Shown here piece by piece: positions 17,766 to 37,018 of a stretch of 37,018 nt of DNA. Position numbers and translations under genes: made by a program. Under the pieces are notes generated by a model, which saw nothing but the letters and a program-made list of their open reading frames with translations, had not been told where the DNA came from and searched no databases. Numbering within the stretch: the stretch's first letter is position 1; every line of letters begins with the position of its first letter. The stretch spans positions 100,174-137,191 of the forward strand of contig JALUAG010000066.1 of assembly GCA_027045875.1 (NCBI GenBank), given 5' to 3'. Origin of the DNA: Alphaproteobacteria bacterium (GTDB taxonomy: Bacteria; Pseudomonadota; Alphaproteobacteria; Geminicoccales; Geminicoccaceae).

Positions 17766-18571
17766 CCGTCTCTCTCCTCCGCGGCATCCCGCCGGTAGAA
17801 GACCCCGTCCACCTGCAACTGCCGCCCGAGCTTGCGCTCGAAATAGCCGGGGATCAGCAGGTGCAGGTCATAGCCCCGGGCCTCCATGGCGGCGATGGTG
17901 GCACGGAACTCCCGTTCGCCCTCATAGAGCGGAACCAGCGCCATTTCCAGTTGCACGCCGAGAATGCGCGGCCACAGGCTTCCGACCCCCGCCAGCACCT
18001 GCGGCTCGTAGCCCTGGACGTCGATCTTGAGGAACAGGCGCCGCCAGGCGGGATCGATCTCGGGGATCGAATCCAGCCGTCGCAGCGTCACCGTGATCCG
18101 CTCCCGCACCGCCGAGCTCGGCGAAATCGCCCGCAGCAGACGGTTCTGGGGCAGGATGGAACTCATGTCGCTCTCGGCCGAGCGGGCGATCGCGACCTCG
18201 CCGTCGGCGGCGCCCAGGGCCATCGGCGGCGCCACCCGCCAGGAGGGATCGCCGCGCGCCCCCGCCTCGAGCACCGCATGCACCTCCGGCAGTGGCTCGA
18301 AGGAGAGGATCGGTCCGTCGTAGCCCGCACCCCGCAGGGCCCTTGCGTACTGGCCGGTATTGGCACCGACATCGAGCACCGCGTCGACGCCGAAATGCCG
18401 GAGGGTGGCGACCAGCTGGGCCGCGGGCTCGCGCGGCTTGTCGACGCGCTCCAGCCGGTAGCCCAGACGGGCGGCTAGGCGGCGCAGGCGCGCCTCAGAG
18501 GCCTTCGAGGGCAAGCGCGATCCCCCGGCCGTCACCGAAGGCCGGCCCACGGGCGGGGTCGCCGTGGTCAC
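17762..18571 (-). CDS. FkbM-family SAM-dependent methyltransferase
   Basis: The 269-residue protein has SAM motif [30 protein letters not shown], then [17 protein letters not shown], which is the FkbM signature. FkbM enzymes methylate hydroxyls, mostly on sugars or lipids of surface polysaccharides and natural products. The start is uncertain: a GTG at 18571 gives the full frame but has a weak leader, and a TTG near 18512 has a better GGGGGA. Its overlap with psd places it in the phospholipid operon, which may mean a membrane-lipid or glycolipid substrate; this is inference. Confidence 0.88.
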
Positions 18572-23348: not shown

Positions 23349-23363
23349 CGTGCCGCCGGCACG
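23349..23363. promoter_or_regulatory. inverted repeat in the divergent promoter region
   Basis: CGTGCCG-C-CGGCACG is a perfect 7-bp inverted repeat with a 1-nt centre. It lies in the 237-nt gap between the divergent ABC exporter and glycosyltransferase genes, next to a TTGATT-17 nt-GACAAC stretch that is a weak promoter candidate on the plus strand. It could be an operator serving both directions; this is position-based inference. Confidence 0.3.
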
Positions 23364-23427
23364 ACAACGTCGGTGGCGGCGGACGACGCGCCGCACCCCA
23401 GCGACCTTCCGGGACCCTCCATCCTCG

Positions 23428-24684
23428 ATGCGATCCGCTCCGAGCACGACCTCCCCCGCCCGCGCGGCCGCCGCCCCGGCACCGCGGCACCTCGCCTTCC
23501 TGCTGCCCAATCTCAAGGGGCGCGGCGTGCAGCGGGTGGTCACGGTGCTGAGCGCGGCGCTCCTGGCCCGCGGTCACCGGGTGGACATCGTGACCTGCGA
23601 GGCCCGCGGCGAGCTGCTGGAGGCGGTCCGGGAGGGCGTGCGCATCGTGCCCCTCCCGGCGAGTTCGCGCCTCGCCGCGGCGGCGGCCGCCTTCCGCGCC
23701 GATCCCGGCGGCTTCCGCCTGCTCCTTCCCTTCTTCCTCGGGCGCAAGCTCCGGACATCCCGCACCGCCCCCCATCTGCCGGCACTGGCCGAATATCTGC
23801 GCTCGGAACGCCCGGCCACCCTGTTTTCCGCCGACATTCACCAGAACGTCGAAGCGGTGCTCGCGCGCCGTCTCGCCGGTGTGCCGCTGCGCATCGTCCT
23901 GAGCGAGCGCAACCACTTCTCAAGCGGCAAGCCGATCAAGCGCTGGCGTGCCCGCAGGCTCGCCCCGGCCATGCGCCGCGCCTATCTCGAGGCCGATGCG
24001 GTGACGGCGGTGTCGGCGGGCGTGGCCGACGACCTCGCCGCCAGCCTGGACATCCCCCGCGCGCGCATCCGCGTCCTCCACAACCCGACGATCGGTCCGG
24101 ATTTCGCCGAGCGGATGGCGGCGCCGGTGGATCATCCCTGGTTCCTCGACAAGCCGGCGCCGCTCGTCGTCGGCGTGGGCCATCTCGGCTACCAGAAGGA
24201 TTTCGAGACCCTGCTGCGGGCGTTCGCCCGTGCCCGCCGCCGCCGTCCGATGCGGCTCGCGATCGTCGGCGGGGCGAAGAAGCCCGCGCCCTTCCTCGAG
24301 CTCGCCGGGCGTCTCGGGGTGCGCGAGGAGGTGGCGCTCCTGGGCTATCGGGCCAATCCGGTCGCCTACGTGGCGCGCGCCGACCTGTTCGTGCTGTCCT
24401 CGCGCTACGAGGGGTTCCCGAACGTGCTCCTCGAGGCGCTGGCCTGCGGGACGCCGGTGGTGGCCACCGACTGTCCCCACGGTCCGAGGGAGATTCTCGA
24501 CGGCGGCCGCTACGGCCGGCTGGTGCCGGTGGCCGACGAGGAACGCCTCGCCGAGGCCATGCTGGAGACGCTCGACAGCCCGCCGGACCCGGCCTATCTG
24601 AGAAGCCGCGCCGGGGTCTTCGGCTACGACGCCGCCATCGACGCCTACGAGCGGATACTGCTGGGTGATCCGGAACCGGAATGA
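23428..24684 (+). CDS. GT4-type retaining glycosyltransferase
   Basis: The protein is 418 residues from the ATG at 23428; an in-frame GTG at 23350 would add 26 Arg/Pro-rich residues with no family character. The N-terminal Rossmann domain begins HLAFLLPNLKGRGVQRVV. The C-terminal domain has VVGVGHLGYQKDFETLLRAF, then SSRYEGFPNVLLEALACGTP, which contains the E-x7-E donor-binding motif of GT4 enzymes. It would transfer a sugar from a nucleotide donor to a surface glycan on the cytoplasmic face of the inner membrane. Its stop overlaps the start of the NeuB-family gene (ATGA), tying it to nonulosonic acid synthesis. Confidence 0.92.
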   Translation: MRSAPSTTSPARAAAAPAPRHLAFLLPNLKGRGVQRVVTVLSAALLARGHRVDIVTCEARGELLEAVREGVRIVPLPASSRLAAAAAAFRADPGGFRLLLPFFLGRKLRTSRTAPHLPALAEYLRSERPATLFSADIHQNVEAVLARRLAGVPLRIVLSERNHFSSGKPIKRWRARRLAPAMRRAYLEADAVTAVSAGVADDLAASLDIPRARIRVLHNPTIGPDFAERMAAPVDHPWFLDKPAPLVVGVGHLGYQKDFETLLRAFARARRRRPMRLAIVGGAKKPAPFLELAGRLGVREEVALLGYRANPVAYVARADLFVLSSRYEGFPNVLLEALACGTPVVATDCPHGPREILDGGRYGRLVPVADEERLAEAMLETLDSPPDPAYLRSRAGVFGYDAAIDAYERILLGDPEPE

Positions 24685-25778
24685 AGAAGGCTGCACGCAC
24701 GGTTCGCTTCGGCTCGCGCGAGATCGGCGAGGACCATCCCTGCTTCGTCACCTTCGAGGCGGGACCGACACATGACGGCGTGGAGAGCGCCAAGCGGCTG
24801 ATCGACGCCGCCGCCGAGGCCGGTGCCGACGCCATCAAGTTCCAGATCCTCGACCCCGACCGGCTGGTCGCCGACCGGCGCCAGATGTTCCGCTACGACG
24901 TCCTCCTCGACCGCGAGACCGGCGCCACCGAGACGGTCGAGGAACCCCTCTACGACATCCTCCGCCGCCGAGCGCTGGAACCCGCCCAGTGGCGGGAGGT
25001 GAAGGCGCACGCCGACCGGCGGGGCCTCGCCTTCTTCGCCACCGTGGGCTTCGAGGACGAGATCGCCTTCCTCGAGGAGCTGGGCTGCGCCTCGATCAAG
25101 ATCGCCTCGGCCGACGTCAACCATCTGCCGCTGATCCGTCGGGCGGCCCGCTCCGGCATGTGCATCCAGCTCGACACCGGCCGCTCCACCCTGGGCGAGA
25201 TCGAGACCGCGATCGACACCATCCTCGAGGAAGGCAACGACCAGATCATCGTCCACCAGTGCCCCTCCGGCTATCCGGCGCGGGTCGATTCCATCAACCT
25301 GCGGATCATCCCCACCCTCAAGCGGATGTTCGAGCTGCCGGTCGCCTATTCCGACCACACCCCGGGCTGGGAGATGGACATCGCCGCGGTGGCGCTGGGC
25401 GCCGATCTCGTCGAGAAGACCATCACCTTCGACCGCACCACCCGCAGCGTCGAGCACATCATGTCCATCGAGCCCGGCGAGATGCGTGCCTTCGTGCGTG
25501 CGATCCGCGATCTCGAGCGGGCGCTCGGCGTCCCCCGCCACGTGCTGACGCCGGAGGAGCGGCGGGCGCGCGACGCCATCCGGCGCAGCGTCCATCTCCT
25601 CGAGGACTCCCCCTCGGGGGCCCGGCTGGGCGATCTGCGGGTGGAATTCCGCCGCCCGGGCCACGGCATCGGACCGGATCTCTACGAGCGGCTGCTGGAC
25701 TTCCGCCTCGCCCGCGACCTGCCGGCCGGACACCGTCTCTCCCTCGCCGATCTCGCCGGGTCCGCGGAAGGGGCATGA
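24681..25778 (+). CDS. NeuB-family nonulosonic acid synthase (divergent clade)
   Basis: The 365-residue protein has the NeuB TIM-barrel followed by a C-terminal antifreeze-like (SAF) domain. Residues matching NeuB active-site positions include E26 (TFEAGPTHDG) and K53 (DAIKFQ), with SDHTPGW further on and RRSVH and RPGHGIGP in the SAF domain. NeuB enzymes condense phosphoenolpyruvate with a 6-carbon amino sugar to give sialic, legionaminic or pseudaminic acid. The motifs differ from textbook NeuB: EAGPTHDG replaces the usual AEIGxNHxG, DTGRST replaces STGMST, and VHQCPSGYP has a longer loop. The sugar specificity is therefore open; pseB, pseC and pseG nearby favour a pseudaminic-type substrate. 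Confidence 0.88.
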   Translation: MKKAARTVRFGSREIGEDHPCFVTFEAGPTHDGVESAKRLIDAAAEAGADAIKFQILDPDRLVADRRQMFRYDVLLDRETGATETVEEPLYDILRRRALEPAQWREVKAHADRRGLAFFATVGFEDEIAFLEELGCASIKIASADVNHLPLIRRAARSGMCIQLDTGRSTLGEIETAIDTILEEGNDQIIVHQCPSGYPARVDSINLRIIPTLKRMFELPVAYSDHTPGWEMDIAAVALGADLVEKTITFDRTTRSVEHIMSIEPGEMRAFVRAIRDLERALGVPRHVLTPEERRARDAIRRSVHLLEDSPSGARLGDLRVEFRRPGHGIGPDLYERLLDFRLARDLPAGHRLSLADLAGSAEGA

Positions 25779-26464
25779 AGCGGCTCGCCATCATTCCCGC
25801 CCGGGGCGGCTCGAAGCGTCTGCCCCGCAAGAACCTGCTTCCGGTCGAGGGCCGGCCGATGCTCGCCTACCCCATCGCCTGCGCCCGCCGCTCGGGCCTC
25901 TTCGAGCGGGTGGTGGTCTCGACCGAGGACGAGGAGATCCGCCGCCTCGCCGAGGCCGAAGGGGCGGAGACCGATCGCCGCGATCCGGCCCTCGCCGACG
26001 ATCGCACCGGAGTGGTCGAGGTATGCCGCGAGCTCCTCGCGCGGCTCGAGGCGGCGGGCCGGCTGCCGGATCTCTTCTGCTGCCTCTACGCCACCGCCAT
26101 CTTCCTCGAGCCCGGGGATCTCCTGGCCTCCGAGCGCCGCTTCCACGAGCCGCCGGAACCCGAGGTGGTGATGGGGGTCTCCGCCTTCCCCCTCCATCCC
26201 TTCAAGGCGATGGAGCCGCGCGACGGCTACCTGCGGCCGGTGGATCCCGAGCGGGTGCTCCGCAAGGGCGAGGAATGTCCCCGCTACCTCGCCAGCAACG
26301 GCACCTTCTACTGGGCGCGCAGCCGCTCGTTCCTCGAACGGCCGTCCTTCTACGTCGAGCGCCTGGCCGGTCACGAGATCCCCTATCACCGGGCGATCGA
26401 CATCGACACCGAGGAGGATCTGGCCTTCGCCCGTCTGCTCGCCCGAGGGATGTTCCGGCCGTGA
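25775..26464 (+). CDS. pseF: CMP-nonulosonate cytidylyltransferase (PseF/NeuA family)
   Basis: The 229-residue protein begins MKRLAIIPARGGSKRLPRKN, the CTP-binding P-loop of CMP-sialate synthetases. It continues with RVVVSTEDEEIRRLAEAEGA, then ASNGTFYWAR and RAIDIDTEEDLAFA with metal-binding Asp residues. It would activate the nonulosonic acid made by the preceding gene product as its CMP derivative. Length and motifs fit the PseF type better than long NeuA proteins. The ATG overlaps the NeuB-family stop (ATGA) and its own stop overlaps the GTG of the hisH-like gene. Confidence 0.88.
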   Translation: MKRLAIIPARGGSKRLPRKNLLPVEGRPMLAYPIACARRSGLFERVVVSTEDEEIRRLAEAEGAETDRRDPALADDRTGVVEVCRELLARLEAAGRLPDLFCCLYATAIFLEPGDLLASERRFHEPPEPEVVMGVSAFPLHPFKAMEPRDGYLRPVDPERVLRKGEECPRYLASNGTFYWARSRSFLERPSFYVERLAGHEIPYHRAIDIDTEEDLAFARLLARGMFRP

Positions 26465-27087
26465 GAGTGGCGATCGTCGACTTCGGCATGGGCAATCTGC
26501 GTTCGGTGGCCAACGCCCTCGAGTTCGTCGGCGTCGAGGTGCGGCTGGCCCGCCGCCCGCAGGAGCTCGCCGATGCCGCGGCGCTGGTGCTGCCGGGCGT
26601 GGGCGCCTTCGGTGCCGGCATGGAACACATCCGCGGCTTCGGTCTCCTGGAGCCGCTGCTGCGCCTCGCCGGCGAGGAGGGTCGCCCCCTGCTCGGCATC
26701 TGCCTCGGCATGCAGCTTCTCGCCGACGGCAGCGAGGAGTACGGTTCCCATCGGGGCCTCGGGCTGATCCCGGGGCGGGTGAAGCGGCTCGCCCCCGCCG
26801 ATCCGGCCTGCAAGGTGCCCCATATCGGCTGGAACGACCTCGAGGTGGTCCGGCCCGATCCGCTGTTCCGCGGAATCGCGGAGATGCCCGACTACTATTT
26901 CGTCCACAGCTGGCATTTCGTGCCGGAACGCGAGGCTGACGCCGCCGCCTACTGCGACCACGGCCAGCGCTTCGTGGCGGCGGTGGCCTCGGGTCCGGTG
27001 ACCGGGGTGCAGTTCCACCCCGAGAAGAGCCAGCGCGACGGCATCGCGCTGCTCCGCAACTTCTGCGAGTTCGCCCGCCGATGCTGA
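26461..27087 (+). CDS. hisH: HisH-like glutamine amidotransferase subunit of a sugar-amidation system
   Basis: The 208-residue protein is a class I glutamine amidotransferase: nucleophile C81 in GICLGMQLL, with H186 and E188 in VQFHPEKS completing the triad. It starts at a GTG (26461) giving MRVAIVDFGMGNLRSV, overlapping the previous stop as GTGA. HisH releases ammonia from glutamine and passes it to HisF. Here the pair is embedded in a nonulosonate cluster next to a WbpG/PseA-type amidotransferase, as in the WbpG-HisH2-HisF2 systems that amidinate surface sugars. No other histidine gene is present, so a role in histidine synthesis is unlikely. Confidence 0.93.
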   Translation: MRVAIVDFGMGNLRSVANALEFVGVEVRLARRPQELADAAALVLPGVGAFGAGMEHIRGFGLLEPLLRLAGEEGRPLLGICLGMQLLADGSEEYGSHRGLGLIPGRVKRLAPADPACKVPHIGWNDLEVVRPDPLFRGIAEMPDYYFVHSWHFVPEREADAAAYCDHGQRFVAAVASGPVTGVQFHPEKSQRDGIALLRNFCEFARRC

Positions 27088-27842
27088 AGAAGCGGGTCAT
27101 CGCGGTGCTCATCCTGCGCCAGGGCGAGGTGGTGCAGAGCGTGCAGTTCCGCCACACCAACGTGATCCACAAGGATCCCCGCTTCGCCGTCGAATACTTC
27201 AGCAAGTGGGACGCCGACGAGCTCGTCATCCTCGACGTCACCCGCACCGACGAGCACCGGGCGCGCTTCCTCGATACCCTGGAGCGTCTGTCGCGCACCT
27301 GCTTCGTGCCGATCAGCGCCGGCGGCTGGCTGCGCAGCTGTGCGGACATCGACGGCGTCCTCTCCCGCGGCGCCGACAAGGCGGTGATCAACACCGAGGC
27401 GCTGCACCGGCCGGTCTTCCTCGAGGAGGCGGCGAGGCGCTTCGGATCCCAGTGCATCGTGGTGGGCATCGACTGTCGGCGGGACGACCGGGGCGAGCAC
27501 ATGGTCCATGTCGACCGCGGGCGCGAACCCACGGGATGGCGCGCCGAGGCCTGGGCCCGCGAGGCGGTGGCCCGGGGCGCCGGCGAGATCTTCCTCTGCT
27601 CCATCGACAACGACGGCATGCGCTGCGGCTACGACCTGCCCCTGCTGCGCAAGGTGGTGGACGCGGTGTCGGTGCCGGTGATCGCCTTCGGCGGCGCCTC
27701 GAGCGCCGAGCACATGGCCGAGGGCCTGCGGCAGGGCGGGGTGGAGGCGGTGTCGGCCGCCAACGTGTTCCACTACAGTGAAAACAGCATGCGCAAGATG
27801 AAACGGGCGCTGCGGGCGATGGGCATTCACGTCCGCCGCTGA
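27081..27842 (+). CDS. hisF: HisF-like ammonia-channel subunit (HisF2/WbuZ type) lacking the first catalytic Asp
   Basis: The 253-residue TIM barrel is clearly HisF-related (MLKKRVIAVLILRQGEVV; FGSQCIVVGIDCRRD; SIDNDGMRCGYDLP). In true HisF the general acid/base pair is D11 and D130. Here position 11 is Ile (VLILRQG instead of CLDVKDG), while the second Asp is kept as D131 and the D176 equivalent as D178. Loss of D11 should abolish imidazole glycerol phosphate synthesis but leave the barrel able to conduct ammonia from HisH. It overlaps hisH by 7 nt. The natural partner is the amidotransferase encoded 54 nt downstream. Confidence 0.92.
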   Translation: MLKKRVIAVLILRQGEVVQSVQFRHTNVIHKDPRFAVEYFSKWDADELVILDVTRTDEHRARFLDTLERLSRTCFVPISAGGWLRSCADIDGVLSRGADKAVINTEALHRPVFLEEAARRFGSQCIVVGIDCRRDDRGEHMVHVDRGREPTGWRAEAWAREAVARGAGEIFLCSIDNDGMRCGYDLPLLRKVVDAVSVPVIAFGGASSAEHMAEGLRQGGVEAVSAANVFHYSENSMRKMKRALRAMGIHVRR

Positions 27843-27845
27843 TCC

Positions 27846-27868
27846 GGCCCGCGGCCGCACCGCGGGCC
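27846..27868 (+). promoter_or_regulatory. strong hairpin between the hisF-like and amidotransferase genes
   Basis: GGCCCGCGG-CCGCA-CCGCGGGCC is a perfect 9-bp GC stem starting 4 nt after the hisF stop. There is no T-tract. It sits inside an otherwise tightly packed plus-strand operon and could stabilise the upstream mRNA segment or reduce transcription of the downstream genes. Confidence 0.6.
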
Positions 27869-27896
27869 AGCCCGTTCGCCGGACGGAGGAGACAGG

Positions 27897-29207
27897 ATGC
27901 GTTACTGTGCCCGTTGCACCTTTCCCGAGAACGCCCGCCCGACCATCATCTTCGACGAGGAGGGCGTCTGCAGCGGCTGCCGTGTGGTCGAATCGAAGCA
28001 GCGGCTCGACTGGGATTCCCGCGAGAAGATGTTCCGCGAGCTGATCGCGGAATACAAGGCCAAGGCGCGGGAGAAGGGCCAGCCCTACGACTGCATCATC
28101 CCCGTCTCGGGCGGCAAGGACAGCCATTATCAGGTCTATCTGGCGACGCAGGTGTACGGTCTGCGACCGCTGCTCGTGACCTACAATCACGGCTTCAACA
28201 CCCGCCTCGGACTGCGCAACCTCCGCAATCTGGTGCGCAGCTTCAACTGCGATCTCCTGCGGGTGTCCTCGGGCCTCGATACGGTGCGGCGGCTGAGCCG
28301 CTACATGCTGCGCCGCTGCGGCGACGTCACCTGGCACTATCACGCCGGCATCTTCACCGTTCCTTTCCAGGTGGCGGTGGAGAAGCGCATTCCCCTCGTA
28401 CTCTGGGGCGATCACGCCCGCAGCGAACTCTCCGGCCAGTTCCGGCTGGAGGACATGCCGGAGTTCACCAACTGGTGCCGGCAGCAGTACGATATGCGCG
28501 GCATCGAGATCGACGACATCGTGGCCGATCCGGAGAGCGGCCTCGAGCGTCACGAACTCGCCCCCTTCACCTTCCCCGACATGGACCTGATGGACGAGAT
28601 CGGGGTGCGCGGGGTCTACATGGGCGTCTACATCCGCTGGGACGCGCTGCAGACCACCAAGATGCTGATGAAGGACTGGGGCTTCGCCGTCCACCCGGGG
28701 CCGCGGGAAAAGACCTTCAACCTCTACCACAAGATCGACGACCATGCGAACGAGGTGCACGACTATCTCAAGTACCTCAAGTTCGGCTACGGCCGGGCCA
28801 CCGATCACACCGCCGAGGAGATCCGCGCCGGCCGCATGACCCGCGAGGAGGGCATCGCGCTCGTGCGGCGCTACGATGCCGTGCGTCCCTCCTCCCTCGA
28901 CCTCTATCTCGATTTCCTCGGCATTTCCGAGGAGGAGTTCGAGGCGGCGATCGAGGACCAGCGGGATCCCGAGGTGTGGGAGAAGGGGCCCGACGGCAGA
29001 TGGCGGGCCAAGCACGCCATCTGGAAGAGCGACAGCGTCACCTCCAACATGCTGGAGGCGGCCCGCCCCGCCCTGGTGCCGGAGGCCGACCGCACCTTCG
29101 GCTACAACAACCGCCATCTCTACTATTCGGACATCCACGAGCCCTGGCCGCATCCCGACGACCGTTTCGTGGTCGAGCGGGAGGGCCCGGAATTCGTGGT
29201 CGTGTGA
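27897..29207 (+). CDS. N-acetyl sugar amidotransferase (WbpG/PseA family)
   Basis: The 436-residue protein starts MRYCARCTFPENARPTIIFD after GGAGG and 7 nt. It has a zinc-knuckle pattern C4-x2-C7 ... C25-x2-C28 and an ATP-pyrophosphatase loop SGGKDS at residues 71-76. This is the layout of PseA, LegA and WbpG-type enzymes, which use ATP and ammonia supplied by HisH/HisF to turn an acetamido group into an acetamidino group on a sugar or nonulosonic acid. A C-terminal extension (about residues 330-436, HAIWKSDSVTSNMLEAARPA) follows the core. The neighbouring hisH and hisF complete the three-protein amidation unit. The target could be the nonulosonic acid made here or another sugar of the glycan. 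Confidence 0.92.
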   Translation: MRYCARCTFPENARPTIIFDEEGVCSGCRVVESKQRLDWDSREKMFRELIAEYKAKAREKGQPYDCIIPVSGGKDSHYQVYLATQVYGLRPLLVTYNHGFNTRLGLRNLRNLVRSFNCDLLRVSSGLDTVRRLSRYMLRRCGDVTWHYHAGIFTVPFQVAVEKRIPLVLWGDHARSELSGQFRLEDMPEFTNWCRQQYDMRGIEIDDIVADPESGLERHELAPFTFPDMDLMDEIGVRGVYMGVYIRWDALQTTKMLMKDWGFAVHPGPREKTFNLYHKIDDHANEVHDYLKYLKFGYGRATDHTAEEIRAGRMTREEGIALVRRYDAVRPSSLDLYLDFLGISEEEFEAAIEDQRDPEVWEKGPDGRWRAKHAIWKSDSVTSNMLEAARPALVPEADRTFGYNNRHLYYSDIHEPWPHPDDRFVVEREGPEFVVV

Positions 29208-29222
29208 GGTCCGCCGGCGGCG

Positions 29223-30473
29223 ATGGACACGGTGCTGCTGCGGGCCTGGCGGTTCCTCGTGGACTTCCAGTACCGCTGGGTCCTGAAGCAGCCCGCGGAC
29301 ACCCTCGACCGCGGGCCGGCGCGGCTCGCCCCCCTGTTCGACCGCATCCCCGCCCTCTTTCCCCTGATGGCGGCCGCGGGCTGTCGCGTCTCGGCCCGCC
29401 CGCCCGGGAGCGCCGGCCGGCTCTGGCTCGGCCATCGCTCACCCAGGGTCGAGGCCGACCTCCACCGTCTCGGCCGCGAGCTCGGCCTCGAGCTCGTGGC
29501 GACGGCTCCGCCACGGCGGCGGGTATGGCGCACCGGGCTCGTGTCGCCGGCGCTGACGCTCAGGATCGCGCGCACGGTGGGCCACAGGGCCCGCCGCCTC
29601 GACCGTCACGTGCAGAGGGCGCTGGTCGAGATGCTGCTCGAATACGCGGCCCTGCGACGCCTGTTCGCCCGCCGCCCGCCCGGGCTCGTGCTGGTGCCCT
29701 GCGATCTCTCTCCGCGCCGCATCGCCGCCGGCGCCGCCGCCGAACGTGAGGGGGTACCCTGCCTCTACCTGCAGCTCAGCCTCTTCAACACCTACCTGCC
29801 GCCCTTCCGCCCGAGCCGGGCGCTGATCGTCAACCTGGCGGCGGAGCGCACGCTCGCCGCCGCCGGCATTCCGACGGTGCGGCGGGTCCTGCGTCGCGAG
29901 GTGCCGGAGCTGCGGCTTCCGGACGACCGCCCGCGGAGTATCGGCGTCGTCCTCAACTACTACCTCGATCCCGAGCGGCTGGGACCGACTCTCGCCGCGG
30001 TCCGCAGGCACTTCCCGGAAGCCCGCATCCGCCTTCGCCGGCATCCCCGGAGCCGGCGCGACCCCGAGCGACTTCCGGCGGGCGTCGAAACGGACCCGCC
30101 CGAGCGTCCCCTCGCGGAGTTCGCGGCCGGGATCGCGTTCGCCCTCGCCGGCAACAGCGTCGCCCAGCTCGATCTCCTGGGTCTCGGGGTGCCGGTGGTC
30201 CATCTCGACGGTCTCGACGCCCTCGCCTTCGATCACTGCGGCTTCGTGGCCGAGGATCTCGTGTTCGGTGTCCGGCGGGTCGAGGAGATCGAGCTCGATC
30301 GGCTGCGAGCCTTCTACACCCGGCCGGAGTGGCGTCCGCGACTGCTCGTGCGATTGGGCCTCTTCCCGGAGGACGGGCGGGATGCAGCCGAATGGCGGGC
30401 GTTCCGCCGCTGGCTCCAACACCGTCTCGACGGCGGATCTTCCGCCCGACCGGCACCATGTGCGGCATCCTAG
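29223..30473 (+). CDS. putative GT-B-fold glycosyltransferase, unassigned family
   Basis: I do not firmly recognise this 416-residue protein. There is no signal peptide or clear membrane segment. The C-terminal half looks like a GT-B nucleotide-binding domain: RSIGVVLNYYLDPERLG, then ARIRLRRHPRSRRDPERLP, EFAAGIAFALAGNSVAQLD and LGLGVPVVHLDGLDALAFDH. The last stretches resemble the donor-binding region of capsule or polysialyl/nonulosonyl transferases. Being within this cluster, it may transfer the CMP-activated nonulosonic acid; this is inference. Its 3' end overlaps the asnB start by 16 nt. Confidence 0.6.
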   Translation: MDTVLLRAWRFLVDFQYRWVLKQPADTLDRGPARLAPLFDRIPALFPLMAAAGCRVSARPPGSAGRLWLGHRSPRVEADLHRLGRELGLELVATAPPRRRVWRTGLVSPALTLRIARTVGHRARRLDRHVQRALVEMLLEYAALRRLFARRPPGLVLVPCDLSPRRIAAGAAAEREGVPCLYLQLSLFNTYLPPFRPSRALIVNLAAERTLAAAGIPTVRRVLRREVPELRLPDDRPRSIGVVLNYYLDPERLGPTLAAVRRHFPEARIRLRRHPRSRRDPERLPAGVETDPPERPLAEFAAGIAFALAGNSVAQLDLLGLGVPVVHLDGLDALAFDHCGFVAEDLVFGVRRVEEIELDRLRAFYTRPEWRPRLLVRLGLFPEDGRDAAEWRAFRRWLQHRLDGGSSARPAPCAAS

Positions 30474-32389
30474 GCGCCCTCGGCCCGCCCGGCGCCGTCA
30501 CCCGGGAGGAGCTGTCACGGGGACTCCGCGCCATCGCCCATCGCGGACCCGATGCGGAGGGCGTGTTCGTCGAGCCGGAGGCGGGCGTCCTGCTCGGACA
30601 TCGGCGGCTTTCGATCCTCGATCTCTCCGAGGCCGGCGCCCAGCCCATGCGTTCGGCGAGCGGCCGCTACGTCATCGGCTACAATGGCGAGGTGTACAAT
30701 TTCCGCGAGCTGCGGCGGGAGCTCAAGGCCTCCGGTCACCCCTTCCGGGGCCATTCCGACACCGAGGTGATCCTGGCCGCGGTCGAGCGCTGGGGGGTCG
30801 AGGAGGCCGTGCCGCGCTTCGTCGGCATGTTCGCCTTCGCCCTCTGGGACCGGGCGGCGCGGCGGCTGTGGCTGGTGCGCGACCGCCTGGGAAAAAAGCC
30901 CCTCTACCTCGCCCTCTTCGGCGACACCCTGCTGTTCGCTTCCGAGCTCAAGGCGCTGCACGCCTTCTCCCTCTTCCGCCCCGGGATCGATCGCGACGGC
31001 CTCGCCCTCCTCCTCCGCTACCGCTATCTGCCCGATCCCCGGACCATATACCGCGAAGTGGTGAAACTGCCGCCGGCCTGCCTTCTGTCGGTGGAGGCCG
31101 ACGCCCTCGCCGCAACGACGCCGGCATCCCTGCTCGCCTCCTGCCGGCGCTACTGGTCGGCGCGCGAGGTGGCCCTCGCCGGATGCCATCGGCCGGTGCG
31201 GGACGAACGACGGGCGGAGGAGACGCTGGAGGCCCTGCTCGAGGAGGCGGTGGCCTGCCGCATGGTGGCCGACGTGCCGCTCGGGGCGCTCCTTTCGGGC
31301 GGCATCGACAGCACGCTCGTGGTGGCGCTGATGCAGCGCCGCAGCCCCGAACCGGTGCGCAGCTTCACCATCGCCTTCGACGATCCGGCCTACGACGAAT
31401 CCGCCTTCGCCCGCGACATCGCCCGCCATCTCGGGACCGAGCACCGGGAGCTGCGGGTGACCGCCGCCGACGCCCTGGAGCTCGTCCCCTCGCTGCCGGC
31501 GATGTTCGACGAACCCCTCGGCGACGCCTCCGTCATCCCCACCGCCCTCGTCTGCCGGCTCGCCCGCCGCCACGTCACCGTGGCGCTCTCGGGTGACGGC
31601 GGGGACGAGACCTTCGGCGGCTACAACCGCTACTTCCGGGCCCTCCGGGAAGCGCGCGCGCTCGCCCTGCCGCCGTGGATCCGCCGCCCCGCCGCCGCCG
31701 GCCTCGAGCTCCTCGCGGCGACCGCGCCGCGTCTGGGCCTGCGCGCCAAGGGGCTCGGCAAGCGGGCGGAGCGCCTCCGCCATCCGGATTTCGCCGCCCT
31801 CTACCGCGCCCGGGTCTCCCACTGGGAACGGGCCGAGCGTCTCGTGGTCGGTGCCGGGAGGCCGGAGATGCCCGTCTTCGCCAGCCCGCCGCCGGCCTTC
31901 GCCGAGCCCGCCCAGTTCATGATGTGGGCCGACACGGAAAGCTATCTCCCGGGCGACGTGCTGGTGAAGGTCGATCGGGCCAGCATGGCGGCCAGCCTCG
32001 AAATCCGCTCGCCACTGCTCGATCATCGGGTAGTGGAGTTCGCCTGGCGCCTGCCGACCTCCCTCCGCATCCTGGATGGTACCGGCAAGCGCATCCTGCG
32101 GCGGATCCTCGGCCGGCACCTGCCGCCGCAGCTGTTCGAACGCCCCAAGCGCGGCTTCAACGTGCCCCTCGCCGCCTGGCTGCGTGGGCCGCTGCGCGAC
32201 TGGGCGGAGGATCTGCTGGCCGAGGACCGGCTGCGGGCGGAGGGCTATCTCGATCCCGGGCCGATCCGCGCCCGCTGGCGCGAGCACCTCGAGGGCCGCC
32301 GCAACTGGGGGCACGCGCTGTGGGACGTCCTCGCCTTCCAGGGCTGGCTCGCCCACTGGCACCGGGGCCGGCCGCCCCCGGCCGGCTGA
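30458..32389 (+). CDS. asnB: asparagine synthetase (glutamine-hydrolysing)-type amidotransferase
   Basis: The 643-residue protein begins MCGILGALGPPG with catalytic C2 of a class II glutamine amidotransferase domain. HRGPDAEG, LGHRRLSILDLSEAGAQPM and YNGEVYNFREL follow, as in AsnB. The C-terminal synthetase domain has the ATP-binding SGGIDSTLV and SGDGGDETFGGYNRY. In housekeeping roles AsnB makes asparagine; members inside polysaccharide clusters often amidate a sugar carboxylate or a polymer. Placement here, overlapping the upstream gene, favours the second role, without proof. It ends 22 nt before a convergent methyltransferase gene, with a short CGGCGG/CCGCCG hairpin in the gap. Confidence 0.9.
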   Translation: MCGILGALGPPGAVTREELSRGLRAIAHRGPDAEGVFVEPEAGVLLGHRRLSILDLSEAGAQPMRSASGRYVIGYNGEVYNFRELRRELKASGHPFRGHSDTEVILAAVERWGVEEAVPRFVGMFAFALWDRAARRLWLVRDRLGKKPLYLALFGDTLLFASELKALHAFSLFRPGIDRDGLALLLRYRYLPDPRTIYREVVKLPPACLLSVEADALAATTPASLLASCRRYWSAREVALAGCHRPVRDERRAEETLEALLEEAVACRMVADVPLGALLSGGIDSTLVVALMQRRSPEPVRSFTIAFDDPAYDESAFARDIARHLGTEHRELRVTAADALELVPSLPAMFDEPLGDASVIPTALVCRLARRHVTVALSGDGGDETFGGYNRYFRALREARALALPPWIRRPAAAGLELLAATAPRLGLRAKGLGKRAERLRHPDFAALYRARVSHWERAERLVVGAGRPEMPVFASPPPAFAEPAQFMMWADTESYLPGDVLVKVDRASMAASLEIRSPLLDHRVVEFAWRLPTSLRILDGTGKRILRRILGRHLPPQLFERPKRGFNVPLAAWLRGPLRDWAEDLLAEDRLRAEGYLDPGPIRARWREHLEGRRNWGHALWDVLAFQGWLAHWHRGRPPPAG

Positions 32390-32411
32390 CCGCGGCGGGA
32401 CGTCGCCGCCG

Positions 32412-33146
32412 TCACATGAAGCGGGCGCGGTGCCCCGCCCGCCGGCGGAACTCCGCCGCCAGCCCGGCGTCGTTGGTGCTCAGATAGGTGGGCCCCGCCT
32501 GCAGGCAGTAGGGGGCCCGGAAGCCGAGGCGGTTGAACGGCCGCTCGTAGCGGGAGGGCTTGAGGGCGTTGAGGCGCAGGTTGTGGCGGAAGGCGAGGGA
32601 GAGGAAGCGCCGGTAGCCGAGATCGGTGAAGCGGCGCAGGTGCGGATCCCCCCATTCCGGCTGATCCGCGTGCCAGTAGACGCTCTCCTCCCGTCCCAGC
32701 ATCACCCGCAGCATCTTACCGAGGCGGAACTCGTTCGGCACGTGCGAGAACAGCACCCCCTTCGGGCTCATCACGCGCTGGATGCGGGCGAGCGCCTTCT
32801 CGGGATGCAGCAGATGCTCGAACACGTCGGTGCAGACCACGATGTCGAAGGGACCGAGATCGTCGAGATCCTGTCGGTCGAGATCGCGCAGATGGAACGC
32901 GATGCCGGCCTCGCGGAAGCTGTCGGCGTAGTAGGGTTCGACGTCGAGGGCCGCGCGTCGCGGCACCGGCACACGCAGCAGGAAGTCGGGCATGCCGGCG
33001 CCCACCTCGAGGATGGCATCGCCGAACAGGTCACGGTGCCGTTCGAGGATCCGCAGCAGCAGTCTCCGGGTCGATCCGAGGCCCCGCTTGTCGAGGACGT
33101 CGCGAAGGTACGACTTCCCTTCCCCTGCCCCGGTGCCCACCGCCAT
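32412..33146 (-). CDS. class I SAM-dependent methyltransferase
   Basis: The 244-residue protein has a Methyltransf_11-type core: AILEVGAGMPDFLLRV (motif I), ALDVEP (motif II), and FDIVVCTDVFEHLLHPEKAL, typical of sugar or lipid methyltransferases. The ATG at 33146 is used; an ATG at 33203 with GGGGGA 9 nt upstream would add 19 residues and is a fair alternative. It is the only minus-strand gene between the two nonulosonate gene blocks, transcribed divergently from pseB. It could methylate a sugar or aglycone of the surface glycan. Confidence 0.85.
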   Translation of the reverse strand: MAVGTGAGEGKSYLRDVLDKRGLGSTRRLLLRILERHRDLFGDAILEVGAGMPDFLLRVPVPRRAALDVEPYYADSFREAGIAFHLRDLDRQDLDDLGPFDIVVCTDVFEHLLHPEKALARIQRVMSPKGVLFSHVPNEFRLGKMLRVMLGREESVYWHADQPEWGDPHLRRFTDLGYRRFLSLAFRHNLRLNALKPSRYERPFNRLGFRAPYCLQAGPTYLSTNDAGLAAEFRRRAGHRARFM

Positions 33147-33305
33147 CGCTTCCGTCCCGCGATCCTCGCGAGCGGCCACCGAACCCTCCACCCGTCGCCG
33201 CATTGACGCTGGTCCCCCGTTCGCGTATCGGCAACGCGGCGTGCCCCTGCCCGCCCCGCCTCCTGGATCCGGATTCCCATGTATCGCAGTTTCCTCGAGC
33301 CTGCC

Positions 33306-34316
33306 ATGGATTTCGACGACGCCTCGGTGCTGGTCACCGGCGGCACCGGCTCCTTCGGGCGGCGCTTCGTGCGCCTCCTGCTGGAGCGCTGCCGGCCGCG
33401 GCGCCTCGTCGTCTTCTCCCGCGACGAGCTCAAGCAGAGCGAGATGCGGGAGGCCCTGCAGGCCGTCCTCGACGCCGACACCTTCCGGAGGCTGCGCTTC
33501 TTCATCGGCGACGTGCGCGACCGGGCGCGCCTCGAGCTCGCCATGCGCGAGGTGGACTACGTGGTCCACGCCGCCGCCCTCAAGCAGGTACCGACCGCCG
33601 AGTACAATCCCTACGAGTGCCTGCGCACCAACATCGGCGGGGCGGAGAACGTGGTGTGGGCGGCGCTGCGCAACCAGGTCCGCAAGGTGATCGCCCTTTC
33701 CACCGACAAGGCCTGCAACCCGATCAACCTCTACGGGGCCTCCAAGCTCGCCTCCGACAAGACCTTCGTCGCCGCCAACAATCTCTCGGGGGATCTCGGC
33801 ACCCGGTTCTCGGTGGTCCGCTACGGCAACGTGGTGGGCTCGCGGGGCAGCGTGGTGCCCTTCTTCCGCCGGCTCGCCGAGCAGCGGTCGGAGACGGTGC
33901 CCATCACCGACCCGCGCATGACCCGCTTCTGGATCACCCTCGATCAGGGGGTGAACTTCGTCCAGAGCTGCTTCGCCCTGATGCGCGGCGGCGAGATCTT
34001 CGTGCCCAAGATCCCGAGCATGCGCATCGTCGAGCTGGCGCGGGCGATGCTGCCCTGGGCGCGGCAGGAAGTGGTGGGCGTCCGCCCCGGCGAGAAGCTG
34101 CACGAGATGATGATCTCCGAGGACGATTCGCGCAGCACCGTCGATCTCGGCGACCGCTTCGTGATCGAGCCCGTGTTCGCCGAGTGGGAGCGCACCTCCT
34201 TCGCCGCCGAGGGGTTCCCCCGGGTGCCGGACCGTTTCGCCTACGCCAGCGACACCAACGACGAATGGCTCGACGGGGCGGGGCTCCAGCGGCTCCTCCG
34301 AGAGACCCCGGCATGA
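33306..34316 (+). CDS. pseB: UDP-N-acetylglucosamine 4,6-dehydratase (5-inverting)
   Basis: The 336-residue SDR protein begins MDFDDASVLVTGGTGSFGRR, matching PseB N-termini (about 333-336 residues); an ATG at 33279 would add nine residues. The catalytic set LSTDKACNPINLYGASK contains D134, K135, Y143 and K147, the PseB pattern rather than the Ser-Tyr-Lys of other SDRs. It starts the pseudaminic acid route by converting UDP-GlcNAc to UDP-2-acetamido-2,6-dideoxy-beta-L-arabino-hexos-4-ulose. It overlaps pseC by ATGA and heads the pseB-pseC-pseG operon. Confidence 0.93.
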   Translation: MDFDDASVLVTGGTGSFGRRFVRLLLERCRPRRLVVFSRDELKQSEMREALQAVLDADTFRRLRFFIGDVRDRARLELAMREVDYVVHAAALKQVPTAEYNPYECLRTNIGGAENVVWAALRNQVRKVIALSTDKACNPINLYGASKLASDKTFVAANNLSGDLGTRFSVVRYGNVVGSRGSVVPFFRRLAEQRSETVPITDPRMTRFWITLDQGVNFVQSCFALMRGGEIFVPKIPSMRIVELARAMLPWARQEVVGVRPGEKLHEMMISEDDSRSTVDLGDRFVIEPVFAEWERTSFAAEGFPRVPDRFAYASDTNDEWLDGAGLQRLLRETPA

Positions 34317-35518
34317 GCCGCGAACGGCCGTTCCTCCCCTACGGCCGGCAGCGGATCGCGCGGGAGGACGTCGAGGCGGTGGTGGCGGTGCTGGAAAGCG
34401 ACTTCCTGACCACCGGCCCCGCCGTCACGGCCTTCGAGCGGGCCTTCGCCGCCGCCGTCGGCGCGCCCTTCGCGGTCTCCTGCTCGAGCGGCACGGCGGC
34501 CCTCCATCTCGCGCTGGCGGCCCTCGACATCCCGGCCGGGGCGGTCTGTCTCGTGCCCGCCCTCACCTTCGCCGCCACCGCCAACGTGGTGCGGCACTGC
34601 GGCGGCCGGGTGGTCCTGACCGACGTCGATCCGCACACGGGGCTGATGCGCCCCGAGGATCTGGAGGCGGCGATCGCGCGGGCGGGGGGCGGTCGCATCG
34701 CCGCGGTCCTTCCCGTCCACTATGCGGGCCAGCCCGTGCCGCTGGCGGAGATCCGCGAGATGGCCATGAAACGGGGCGCCGCGGTGATCGAGGACGCGTG
34801 CCACGCCCTCGGCACCCGCTTCCGGGACGGTTCCGGCGAAGCCGTGGTGGGCGACGGAAGCCGCGCGGACCTCGCCTGTTTCTCCTTCCATCCCGTGAAG
34901 ACCATCGCCTGCGGGGAAGGCGGCATGGTGACCACAGCGGACCGCTCCCTGGCCGAGCGGATCCGGCGCCTCCGGAACCACGGCATCGAGCGGGATCCCG
35001 CCCGCTTCGTCGCGCCGGATGCGGGACGCGACCCGGGACCCTGGTACTACGAGGTCCAGGAGCCCGGCTTCAACTACCGGCTTTCCGACATCCACGCGGC
35101 ACTGGGATGCAGCCAGCTCCGCAGGCTCGATCGCTTCGTCGCGGAGCGACGGCGTCTCGTGGAAGTCTACGACCGGCTGCTCGCTCCGCTGGCGCCGGCG
35201 GTCCGTCCCATCGGGAGAGTTCCGGGAGCGCGGCCCGGATGGCATCTCTACGTCGTGCAGGTGGCGTTCGAGCGGACGGGGACCGATCGGGCGACGGTGA
35301 TGCGGCGGCTTCGCGATCGGGGCATCGGCACCCAGGTCCACTACGTTCCGCTCCATTTCCACCCGCTCTTCCGGGCCGGAAATCCCGATCTGCGTCTTCC
35401 CGGCGCGGAAGCCTTCTACGCGCGCTGCCTCTCCCTGCCGCTGTTCGTGGGCATGTCGGAGGAGGACGTCGAGCGGGTGGTCCGCGACCTCGCCGCAGCG
35501 CTCGGGATACGGGGATGA
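34313..35518 (+). CDS. pseC: UDP-4-amino-4,6-dideoxy-L-AltNAc aminotransferase
   Basis: The 401-residue protein is a DegT/DnrJ/EryC1-type PLP enzyme. The internal aldimine Lys is K196 in FSFHPVKTIACGEGG. Before it are SCSSGTAALHLAL and VIEDACHALGT with the PLP-ring Asp. GFNYRLSDIHAALGCSQL and HYVPLHFHPLF follow. PseC aminates the C4 keto group of the PseB product. Immediate coupling to pseB (ATGA) and pseG (ATGA) fixes the assignment better than sequence alone, since the family is broad. Confidence 0.93.
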   Translation: MSRERPFLPYGRQRIAREDVEAVVAVLESDFLTTGPAVTAFERAFAAAVGAPFAVSCSSGTAALHLALAALDIPAGAVCLVPALTFAATANVVRHCGGRVVLTDVDPHTGLMRPEDLEAAIARAGGGRIAAVLPVHYAGQPVPLAEIREMAMKRGAAVIEDACHALGTRFRDGSGEAVVGDGSRADLACFSFHPVKTIACGEGGMVTTADRSLAERIRRLRNHGIERDPARFVAPDAGRDPGPWYYEVQEPGFNYRLSDIHAALGCSQLRRLDRFVAERRRLVEVYDRLLAPLAPAVRPIGRVPGARPGWHLYVVQVAFERTGTDRATVMRRLRDRGIGTQVHYVPLHFHPLFRAGNPDLRLPGAEAFYARCLSLPLFVGMSEEDVERVVRDLAAALGIRG

Positions 35519-36567
35519 CGCCCGGCCTCGCCGTATTCCGCTGCGACGCCTCGCCGGCCACGGGAATCGGTCACGCGATGCGATGCTTGGTGCTCGCGGA
35601 GGCCCTCGCGGCGCGCGGCTGGCGGGTTCTGTTCGCCTGTCGGCCGCCGACCCGCGACGCGGTGGCCCGCCTCGATGCGGTCGAGGTGTTCGATCTGCCG
35701 CCCGGGATTTCCCGGACCTCCGAGCCGGATCTCCTGGGCGAGCGGGTCGGTCGGGCCCGACTGCTGGTCGTCGACCATTACGGCTGGGATGCCGGGCTCG
35801 AAGAGCGTTGCCGCGACTGGGCCGAACGCATCCTCGTGGTGGACGATCCGGCGGACCGGACCCACGATGCCGACTGGCTCGTGAATCCCAATCTCGGCTG
35901 TGGCGCCGAAGCCTATCGAGGCCGCGTGCCGGCCTCCTGCCGACTGCTGCTGGGTCCCGCTTACGCCTTCCTCCACCCGGCCTTTCGCGCGGCGCGGCAG
36001 CGGAGCCGACTGCGGCCCGAGGTCCGGCGGCTGCTGGTCGCGATGGGCGGGACGGATCCCACCGACGCCACCGGCGTCGCGCTTTCGACCCTCGCCGAGC
36101 TCGGCTACGACGGTACGGTGGACGTCGTGCTCGGTCCCTCCGCCCCGCACCTCGAACGGATACGGGCCTTCGTCGCCCGACAACCGAACTTCCGGCTTCG
36201 GGTCGGCCTCGAGCCGGCGGCCATGGCCCGCCTTCTCGCGGGCTGCGATCTCGCCCTGGCCGCCGGCGGCTCGAGCAGCTGGGAACGGTGCTGCGTCGGT
36301 CTGCCCAGCATCGTCTCCCCGATTGCCGACAACCAGGACATGGCGGCACGCGGGCTCGCCGAGCGCGGGGTCGCTCTGGTGATCGGGAATCTCGCCCGCG
36401 AGCAGGGCCGCTCGGAGCTGCGGGCGGCGCTTCGCCGCCTGCTTGCCGATGCGAAGCTGCGGGCTCAGTTTCGGGAACGCGGCCGTCGCCTCGTGGACGG
36501 CACGGGAGCGGAACGGGTTTCGGAGCTGATCGAAGGTGGAGAACCCGCGAGCCATGCCTTCGGATGA
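35515..36567 (+). CDS. pseG: UDP-2,4-diacetamido-2,4,6-trideoxy-altropyranose hydrolase
   Basis: The 350-residue GT-B-like protein has RCDASPATGIGHAMRCLVLA, containing the G-x-G-H-x-x-R motif of PseG with the candidate catalytic His at H20. VVDDPADRTHDADWLVNPNL and AAGGSSSWERCCVGLPS in the donor-binding domain follow, and IADNQDMAARGLA near the end. PseG removes UDP to give the free 6-deoxy-AltdiNAc that is condensed with phosphoenolpyruvate by the synthase. It overlaps pseC by ATGA and ends just before the formyltransferase-like gene, which starts 14 nt inside it. Confidence 0.93.
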   Translation: MTPGLAVFRCDASPATGIGHAMRCLVLAEALAARGWRVLFACRPPTRDAVARLDAVEVFDLPPGISRTSEPDLLGERVGRARLLVVDHYGWDAGLEERCRDWAERILVVDDPADRTHDADWLVNPNLGCGAEAYRGRVPASCRLLLGPAYAFLHPAFRAARQRSRLRPEVRRLLVAMGGTDPTDATGVALSTLAELGYDGTVDVVLGPSAPHLERIRAFVARQPNFRLRVGLEPAAMARLLAGCDLALAAGGSSSWERCCVGLPSIVSPIADNQDMAARGLAERGVALVIGNLAREQGRSELRAALRRLLADAKLRAQFRERGRRLVDGTGAERVSELIEGGEPASHAFG

Positions 36568-37018
36568 CGTGCCCGATTGGTGGCGGAAGCCGCGTCGGGT
36601 GAGCGTGGTGGTCGACAATCCCAACTGGATGACGCCCTTCGCCCGACAGCTCGTCGCGGAGCTCGCGGCGGGCGGCGATCACGCCCGTTTCCTCGAGGAT
36701 CCCGGGTCGGTGCCGGCGGGCGGCATCACCTTCTATCTCAACTGCCACTCGCGCATCCCGGACACGATTCTGGCGCGCAGCCGGCACAATCTCGTGGTCC
36801 ACGCGAGTCGACTGCCGCACGGCCGCGGCATGTCACCGTGGGTGTGGCAGATCCTGGAAGGCGCCCGCACCCTCCCCCTGAGCCTCTTCGAGGCGGTCTC
36901 CGAAATCGACGCCGGTCCCGTGTACCGTGTCGTCGAAATCCCGCTCGAGGGGCACGAACTGGTGGACGAACTGCGCGACAGGCTCGGTCGGGCCACCGTC
37001 GAGCTGTGCCGCTGGTTC
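36554..37018 (+). CDS. formyltransferase-family protein, 5' part (cut by window end)
   Basis: The frame opens with ATG at 36554, overlapping the pseG 3' end, and runs 155 codons to the last base without a stop. NLVVHASRLPHGRGMSPWVW then LSLFEAVSEIDAGPVY matches the catalytic region of methionyl-tRNA/sugar formyltransferases (usual pattern N-x-H-P-S-x-L-P ... D-x-G). The His (H83) and Asp (D119) positions are kept; the usual Asn two residues before the His is Val, with an Asn at 79 instead. It stands where pseH, the GNAT acetyltransferase, usually stands, and may N-formylate the C4 amine of the PseC product, giving a 7-formamido nonulosonic acid. The rest of the gene is outside the window. Confidence 0.8.
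   Translation, partial: MPSDDVPDWWRKPRRVSVVVDNPNWMTPFARQLVAELAAGGDHARFLEDPGSVPAGGITFYLNCHSRIPDTILARSRHNLVVHASRLPHGRGMSPWVWQILEGARTLPLSLFEAVSEIDAGPVYRVVEIPLEGHELVDELRDRLGRATVELCRWF

Follow-up and report, generated by a model that had tools for sequence, protein, structure and literature searches.

Bacterial cells and their flagella carry surface coats of nonulosonic acids, which influence encounters with phages, hosts, and other cells. Pseudaminic acid (Pse) is made through the sequential action of PseB, PseC, PseH, PseG, PseI, and PseF. Among its described relatives, Pse5Am7Ac is reported from Campylobacter jejuni (PMC3068675) and Pse5Ac7Fo as a natural sugar of Pseudoalteromonas distincta (PMC3210612). 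For the known classes, the pathway is described as assignable from the NeuB-type synthase alone (PMC7371886). Here, we describe a locus in a 37,018-nucleotide window, the whole stretch of DNA that was analyzed (positions 100174 to 137191 of contig C66, GenBank JALUAG010000066.1), from the genome of a bacterium of the Geminicoccaceae (Alphaproteobacteria; 110 contigs, 3.53 Mb, 99.93% complete; hereafter G000). The locus combines Pse genes with a gene for a second NeuB-family synthase, which we call SynA (24681 to 25778, plus strand). Judged by its genes, it probably encodes a complete Pse-type pathway in which formyl transfer takes the place of PseH and the product is amidinated, with SynA as an additional synthase. 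The pairing of formyl and amidine genes is interesting and not unique, and the second synthase clade is the notable part. Neither a second synthase of this kind nor a formylated and amidinated Pse locus was described in the literature searched, outside which most subscription journals lay.

Pse genes, amidination unit, and the supply of SynA

Four enzymes of the Pse route together exceed their curated NCBIfam cut-offs: PseB, the inverting uridine diphosphate (UDP)-GlcNAc 4,6-dehydratase (33279 to 34316, plus strand; TIGR03589, 498.5 bits against 407.75), the PseC transaminase (34313 to 35518, plus strand; TIGR03588, 466.7 against 423.5), the PseG UDP-sugar hydrolase (35515 to 36567, plus strand; TIGR03590, 237.2 against 153.55), and PseI, which lies on the adjoining contig C43 (L005:17935-18990, minus strand; TIGR03586, 479.2 against 340.25; L numbers denote fetched loci). 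The earlier note on this DNA, which was made from the window alone, had suggested extending the sequence to the right in search of pseI, and this is where the gene was found. The window ends with contig C66 itself (137191 of 137191), and C43, read backwards, overlaps this end by exactly 127 bases and supplies, on the minus strand of L005, the remainder of a formyltransferase followed by a Pse methylase (L005:18987-19628, minus strand; TIGR03587, 255.5 bits against 112.05) and PseI. The join is supported by the exact overlap and by one-contig versions in two congeners, given that SynA to PseI lie on one contig in G002 and that a single contig of G001 runs from part of HisH to PseI, formyltransferase included; a misjoin of contigs is thought unlikely in light of these congener contigs. 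The PseI of C43 groups with RkpQ of Sinorhizobium fredii NGR234 (a supported group in a 90-row tree), for which Pse synthase function is reported (PMC7591256). The activating step would fall to a PseF-like cytidine monophosphate (CMP)-nonulosonate cytidylyltransferase (25775 to 26464, plus strand; TIGR03584, 178 bits against 205.7), which is the only match to this model in G000 at E <= 0.001; in control genomes the same model was matched in seven, none of them above its cut-off.

SynA carries the NeuB Pfam domain PF03102 (220.8 bits against 22.1), and its fold matches too. It falls under the cut-offs of both the NeuB model (TIGR03569, 248.9 bits against 399.65) and the PseI model (TIGR03586, 209.2 against 340.25) and belongs to a separate NeuB clade. 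The earlier note had proposed a surface glycan bearing a modified pseudaminic-like acid, which fits these data; SynA, which the note took for the pathway synthase, is not that enzyme.

Between the PseF-like gene and the remainder of the locus lies an amidination unit. It consists of a HisH-like glutaminase (about 26461 to 27087, start codon not fixed, plus strand; TIGR01855, 221.5 bits against 105.4), a HisF/WbuZ-like subunit (27081 to 27842, plus strand), and a WbuX/WbpG-class N-acetyl sugar amidotransferase, the predicted amidine former (27897 to 29207, plus strand; TIGR03573, 337.3 bits against 203.2). Given that PseB, PseC, PseG, and this WbuX-class enzyme all exceed curated cut-offs, the gene block is not a chance assembly. 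The unit is dedicated, since its HisF is under the cut-offs of both hisF and WbuZ and the true hisF is found elsewhere in the genome, on contig C64 (336.8 bits); assignment of the gene at 27081 to 27842 to the histidine pathway was rejected on these grounds. The amidotransferase is thus adjoined by its own HisH and HisF, as is expected of a WbuX/WbpG unit. In other genomes (e.g., L069, L087, and L125) HisH, HisF, and WbuX lie within single-strand runs from PseB and PseC to PseG, and this interleaving supports amidination on the same pathway. In L125, from Methylophilus aquaticus VKM B-3159, the gene order is PseB-PseC-SynA-HisH-HisF-WbuX-PseF-PseG-formyltransferase-PseI, whereas L108, from Thalassospira profundimaris, has no amidination trio.

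To examine the company that SynA keeps, we used the best 80 of 100 confirmed SynA loci, of which 48 had flanks of 9 kb or more in both directions and were kept (32/80 dropped). The controls were 40 hand-picked Pse loci, in most cases a single one from each genus and with SynA-positive loci omitted, from 65 of 385 genomes of the same class that scored above the PseI cut-off; six were shorter than 19 kb and were dropped, leaving 34, and total length was the sole check on their flanks. Gene calls in these loci are tblastn matches at thresholds that we set. Among the 48 SynA loci, PseB was called in 41, PseC in 38, PseG in 40, a PseF-like gene in 45 (just one match in 42 of them), a canonical synthase in 45, and the full HisH/HisF/WbuX trio in 20. 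The partner synthase was PseI-type in 31, type D in 10, and of another kind in 4; none was seen in 3, one of which is that of G002, whose PseI lies outside the stretch used. For all 80 loci we also recorded the nearest same-strand marker within 500 bases of SynA. On the upstream side it was PseC in 39 loci; on the downstream side, 41 loci had the PseF-like gene and 12 had HisH. Both the trio (20/48 versus 5/34; Fisher p = 0.014) and PIG-L (20/48 versus 4/34; p = 0.003) were more frequent than in controls, in a comparison that mixes taxa and whose p values are uncorrected for descent. The differences were not significant for a formyltransferase of the locus type (p = 0.07), another formyltransferase (p = 0.51), or the methylase (p = 0.06). 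Type D is a NeuB subfamily with a KxGSD motif found beside SynA (L086:12776-13807, L097:12796-13818, and L100:14087-15109) in loci that hold a PIG-L deacetylase and not PseI. The four type D proteins tested, these three and that of L129, are under the NeuB and PseI cut-offs. PIG-L is present in 9 of the 10 type D loci, which have neither the amidination trio nor a formyltransferase.

G000 has two NeuB-family genes and one PseF-type match, and the PF02350 epimerase family, to which NeuC and LegG presumably belong, has no match in G000 or G002, although it was matched in 11 of 14 control genomes. On these grounds, the PseB/PseC/PseG route most likely supplies SynA, which would share a single CMP-transferase with PseI. 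A separate Neu5Ac or legionaminic route feeding SynA is thought unlikely given the lack of a PF02350 match in both genomes. LegG has been equated with NeuC (PMC6137143).

We considered that the locus could instead make two separate nonulosonates, with SynA and the amidination unit producing one acid and PseB, PseC, PseG, the formyltransferase, and PseI producing a formylated Pse, so that no molecule carries both modifications. The two NeuB clades do lie in two same-strand runs with a minus-strand methyltransferase between them, and the trio is, as given above, found more often in loci with SynA than in the controls. Moreover, the position occupied by Phe in Pse synthases (Ala144 in SynA) is Ala in 52, Gly in 19, Ser in 8, and Gln in 1 of the 80 SynA sequences, i.e., Ala, Gly, or Ser in 79/80, compared to Phe in 44, Asp in 12, Ala in 5, Gly in 2, Thr in 2, Cys in 1, and a gap in 1 of the 67 other NeuB-family sequences, and this position has been tied to C2 specificity (PMC7371886). 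However, G000 has a single PseF-type match and no PF02350 match, and the trio and SynA come apart in both directions, given that the trio occurs without SynA in 5/34 loci and SynA without the trio in 28/48. We therefore regard two separate products as unlikely and favor one shared Pse-type route.

SynA as a distinct synthase clade

Members of the SynA clade were found by whole-protein searches at 51 to 68% identity in other genera, and all 30 SynA rows sampled for the 90-row tree fall on one side of a branch with SH-aLRT support of 100; the tree was built quickly and includes several long rows, and the sister place of type D in it is weakly supported. A plasmid search returned no clade member among its 92 matching records, the best among the matches listed being 38.7% identical. 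Ten aligned members, taken from this window and the whole-protein searches (two others were left out, L067 because it is truncated at the end of its contig and L072 because of its broken frame), share the motifs EAGxTH, CPxGYPAR, SDHxPGWxMD, and EKT, where all eight other synthases in the comparison have EKH. The Thr of this last motif, T247 in SynA, aligns with H236 of Neisseria meningitidis NeuB (PDB 1XUU), which we take to be one of its two Mn-coordinating His residues. This position is Thr in all 10 aligned members, and in the 80 SynA loci it is Thr in 79 and Ser in 1, a count in which Thr was partly selected for by one of the two search patterns, which contained EKT. The 67 other NeuB-family sequences longer than 200 amino acids from the same loci all have His here. 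Two His residues are described as coordinating Mn in the NeuB family (PMC7591256). The other active-site positions that were examined are mostly retained by clade members. The AlphaFold2 model of SynA (predicted local distance difference test [pLDDT] score, 89.5) has its best PDB matches in 8h2c and 1xuu, a PseI and a NeuB, and contains a predicted strand pair (residues 69 to 77 and 82 to 89) in a longer loop.

The altered metal site raises the question of whether SynA is a partner or regulatory subunit that forms a heterodimer with the canonical synthase, or a decaying paralogue. Such a role would account for the replacement of the second metal His by Thr and for the canonical synthase alongside in 45/48 loci, although the clade of this partner can change; in L072 the SynA frame (L072:9227-10287) appears broken and the PseI match is in one piece. 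On the other hand, most of the other active-site positions examined are retained, and SynA is among the most conserved locus proteins between congeners (91%). An identity of only about 33 to 38% to PseI disfavors a mixed dimer. Thr at the metal site need not mean that SynA is dead, given that replacing a Mn-coordinating His with Ala is reported to leave the NeuB of Caulobacter crescentus partly active (PMC7591256). Taken together, this evidence makes a subunit or a relic distinctly unlikely, and we favor SynA as a probably active second synthase fed by the PseB/PseC/PseG route.

More tentatively, SynA could found an undescribed functional class of nonulosonate synthases whose metal site is altered; it would use a product of the PseB/PseC/PseG route to form a new isomer or acid beside that of PseI in the Pse loci of many phyla. 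A conserved second synthase outside the curated classes also means that synthase-based predictions of pathways miss a branch.

Probable formyl transfer, its proposed acetyl replacement, and the proposed route

The PseH slot of the locus is occupied by a sugar N-formyltransferase gene (about 36536 to 37018, start codon not fixed, plus strand) that is cut by the end of the window and encodes 240 amino acids once joined to C43. The earlier note had also suggested a search for pseH; no match to the PseH model (TIGR03585) exists genome-wide in G000 or in G001 at E <= 0.001. One His and one Asp are kept in all 12 aligned members of the formyltransferase family, whose profile matches 1zgh (7e-22), ArnA (3.5e-18), and the PseJ structure 6ci2 (8.5e-7). 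The enzyme thus lies outside the PseJ subfamily, and it probably works like PseJ, whose step we take to be N-formylation in a Pse pathway. A second formyltransferase type, with an FHMTDxP or FHITDLP motif and about 29 to 35% identity to queries of the locus type, occurs in the Pse loci L078, L080, L108, L116, L119, L123, L144, L147, and L148, and L098 has one too.

The congeners allow this slot to be compared directly. Gene order is kept in both, with two exceptions in G002, a glycosyltransferase described below and the PseG slot. G001 carries the formyltransferase whole on one contig (L041:1959-2630; 70% identity). In G002, the place of PseG and the formyltransferase is taken by an inverted gene (L038:4947-6473) for a 508-amino-acid fusion of PseG (191 bits against 153.55) to a GNAT domain assigned by Pfam. 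The only NCBIfam match of the GNAT part is to PseH (26.6 bits against 93.1), and this is the sole PseH match across the three congener genomes. A genome-wide search of G002 for formyltransferase relatives gave only a 29% match, which has a 31% counterpart in G000. Elsewhere in the locus, identity between G000 and G002 is 92% for WbuX (92% in G001 as well), 91% for SynA, 88% for PseB, 87% for both the methylase and PseI, 84% for the PseF-like enzyme, 81% for HisF, 78% for the AsnB-type protein, 77% for HisH, 72% for PseC, and 64% for the protein encoded at 29223 to 30473. The PseG-GNAT replacement strongly supports formylation in the PseH slot of G000, and we read it as a natural exchange at the PseH step, with formyl transfer in G000 and acetyl transfer in G002. 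Because the amidination genes are unchanged across the swap, the simplest amidination target would be the N-acetyl group that both products share, on C5 of Pse. Two close relatives that differ in this way and keep the amidination genes constant offer a direct test of acyl specificity.

Action of the formyltransferase on another glycan sugar is very unlikely even though its closest solved relatives are 1zgh (named as a methionyl-tRNA formyltransferase) and ArnA and its Pfam score is slightly below the gathering cut-off, given that the gene overlaps pseG, that both are replaced together in G002, and that its relatives recur in other Pse loci (11/80 SynA loci and 1/34 controls).

The amidination trio is present in all three genomes of the genus that were examined and optional elsewhere (20/48 SynA loci and 5/34 control loci), and on this distribution it is a detachable decoration. 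The earlier note considered that separate occurrence of the two gene blocks in relatives with different products would speak against a joint product; the optional trio goes part of the way in that direction, yet the three genomes of the genus all keep it. The pairing of amidation with formylation, which the note called the most unusual element of the locus, recurs, with a formyltransferase of the locus type in 7/80 SynA loci and with the other type in 1/40 of the fetched Pse loci without SynA (L153).

We propose the following route. PseB and PseC would convert UDP-GlcNAc to UDP-4-amino-4,6-dideoxy-L-AltNAc, and the formyltransferase, replacing PseH, would N-formylate the new amine. PseG would then free the sugar, PseI would condense it with phosphoenolpyruvate, and the PseF-like enzyme would form the CMP sugar, giving Pse5Ac7Fo. 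HisH and HisF would pass ammonia to the WbuX-class enzyme, which would convert an N-acetyl group, most simply the one at C5, to acetamidino and so give Pse5Am7Fo. Methylation by the TIGR03587 enzyme is probable, and the candidate glycosyltransferases and the ABC exporter may place the sugar on a surface glycan or on flagellin, for which G000 has two matches. The genes themselves, their order and conservation, the exchange of the acyltransferase, and the pairing of two synthases are read directly from the DNA, and the Pse steps follow established pathway biochemistry; we infer the positions of the formyl and amidine groups, the methylation, the acceptor, and the reaction of SynA.

Several observations weigh against this proposal. 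The PseF-like enzyme and HisF are under their equivalog cut-offs, and the amidine target may instead be the formyl nitrogen or the product of SynA. The formyltransferase resembles 1zgh and ArnA more closely than it does the PseJ structure and narrowly misses the Pfam gathering score. The GNAT part of the G002 fusion is far under the PseH cut-off, and weak matches to the PseH model also turn up in 13 of 14 control genomes; the score by itself is therefore weak evidence, and it is the place of the gene that counts. The apparently broken SynA frame of L072 sits among matches to PseB, PseC, PseG, the formyltransferase, and PseI, and no report of a tested SynA-clade enzyme was found in the literature searched.

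Neighboring genes and comparison with described systems

Several genes of the locus overlap slightly, at 24681/24684, 25775/25778, 34313/34316, and 35515/35518. Upstream of SynA is a GT4-family glycosyltransferase gene (23350 to 24684, plus strand; Pfam Glyco_trans_1_4 and Glyco_transf_4), for which tblastn gave no match in L038 or L039, the two stretches of G002. Divergent from it is a single gene for a fused ABC permease and ATPase, a candidate glycan exporter (21409 to 23190, minus strand; Pfam ABC_membrane and ABC_tran), in agreement with the divergent exporter of the earlier note. Its 185 NCBIfam matches include HepA, CydD, LssB, MsbA, and PglK models, and the 25 that were listed are all under cut-off. 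The transporter is divergent beside SynA in G002 too, at 76% identity. Next to it, a DUF3604 protein (18869 to 21109, minus strand) is conserved in G002, and an FkbM methyltransferase is encoded at 17762 to 18571.

Downstream of WbuX, a protein conserved in the three congeners (29223 to 30473, plus strand) has no NCBIfam or Pfam match, and RxHP and GNS stretches in its alignment make it a candidate glycosyltransferase; its structure predicted from three sequences (pLDDT, 42) was too poor to use. The two glycosyltransferase candidates of the earlier note thus differ in standing, with the GT4 enzyme identified by Pfam and this one without a family. An AsnB-type glutamine amidotransferase follows (30458 to 32389, plus strand; TIGR01536, 469 bits against 267; Pfam Asn_synthase), whose top match is an XrtA/PEP-CTERM amidotransferase model, yet under the cut-off of that model. 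Between this gene and pseB is an S-adenosylmethionine-dependent methyltransferase (32412 to 33146, minus strand; Pfam Methyltransf_23; 80% identical in G001 and G002). The contiguous block and overlaps described earlier are as stated, with one methyltransferase identified in the interval in place of two. In the roughly 18 kb beyond PseI, where open reading frame translations were read and some of them scanned, no further nonulosonate gene was noticed. Small open reading frames at L005:17046-17612 and its neighbor resemble, by eye, a nucleotidyltransferase/HEPN-like pair, and the one that was scanned had no PADLOC match. DndC-like and PbeC/DndD-like genes (L005:11703-16679; DNA phosphorothioation or a related defense), with a weakly matching ATPase, lie near PseI between tRNA-Arg and tRNA-Ser genes.

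Compared to the canonical PseB-PseC-PseH-PseG-PseI-PseF pathway, the locus has PseB, PseC, PseG, and PseI above equivalog cut-offs and a PseF-like enzyme; it differs in having no PseH match genome-wide, a formyltransferase in that slot, an added second synthase, and a PseF under its cut-off. The flm genes of Caulobacter and the rkp genes of Sinorhizobium (PMC7591256) represent the same alphaproteobacterial Pse route, and the PseI described here groups with RkpQ, but one NeuB is described for each of those systems, and the available text mentions no amidination or formylation genes. Flagellin glycosylation islands of Geobacillus (PMC5109656) likewise hold Pse genes without PseH together with formyltransferase and methyltransferase genes, one formyltransferase lying at the acetyltransferase position of relatives in a dTDP-sugar set, whereas an amidination unit and a second NeuB are not mentioned in the part of that report available. 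As with C. jejuni Pse5Am7Ac and the WbuX/WbpG-HisH-HisF systems, a WbuX-class amidotransferase is accompanied by its own HisH and HisF; here, amidination is paired with formyl rather than acetyl transfer at the PseH step, with C5 as the presumed target. The Pse5Ac7Fo of P. distincta (PMC3210612) is the sugar expected in our pathway before amidination, and the cited text gives no genes for it. PseJ (PDB 6ci2 and 6ci4) would carry out the same step as our formyltransferase, which belongs to a different subfamily (8.5e-7 for PseJ versus 7e-22 for 1zgh). Finally, SynA shares the fold and most active-site residues of the NeuB, PseI, and SpsE synthases and differs from them in its separate clade, Thr in place of the second metal His, its longer loop, and its EAGxTH, CPxGYPAR, and SDHxPGWxMD signatures.

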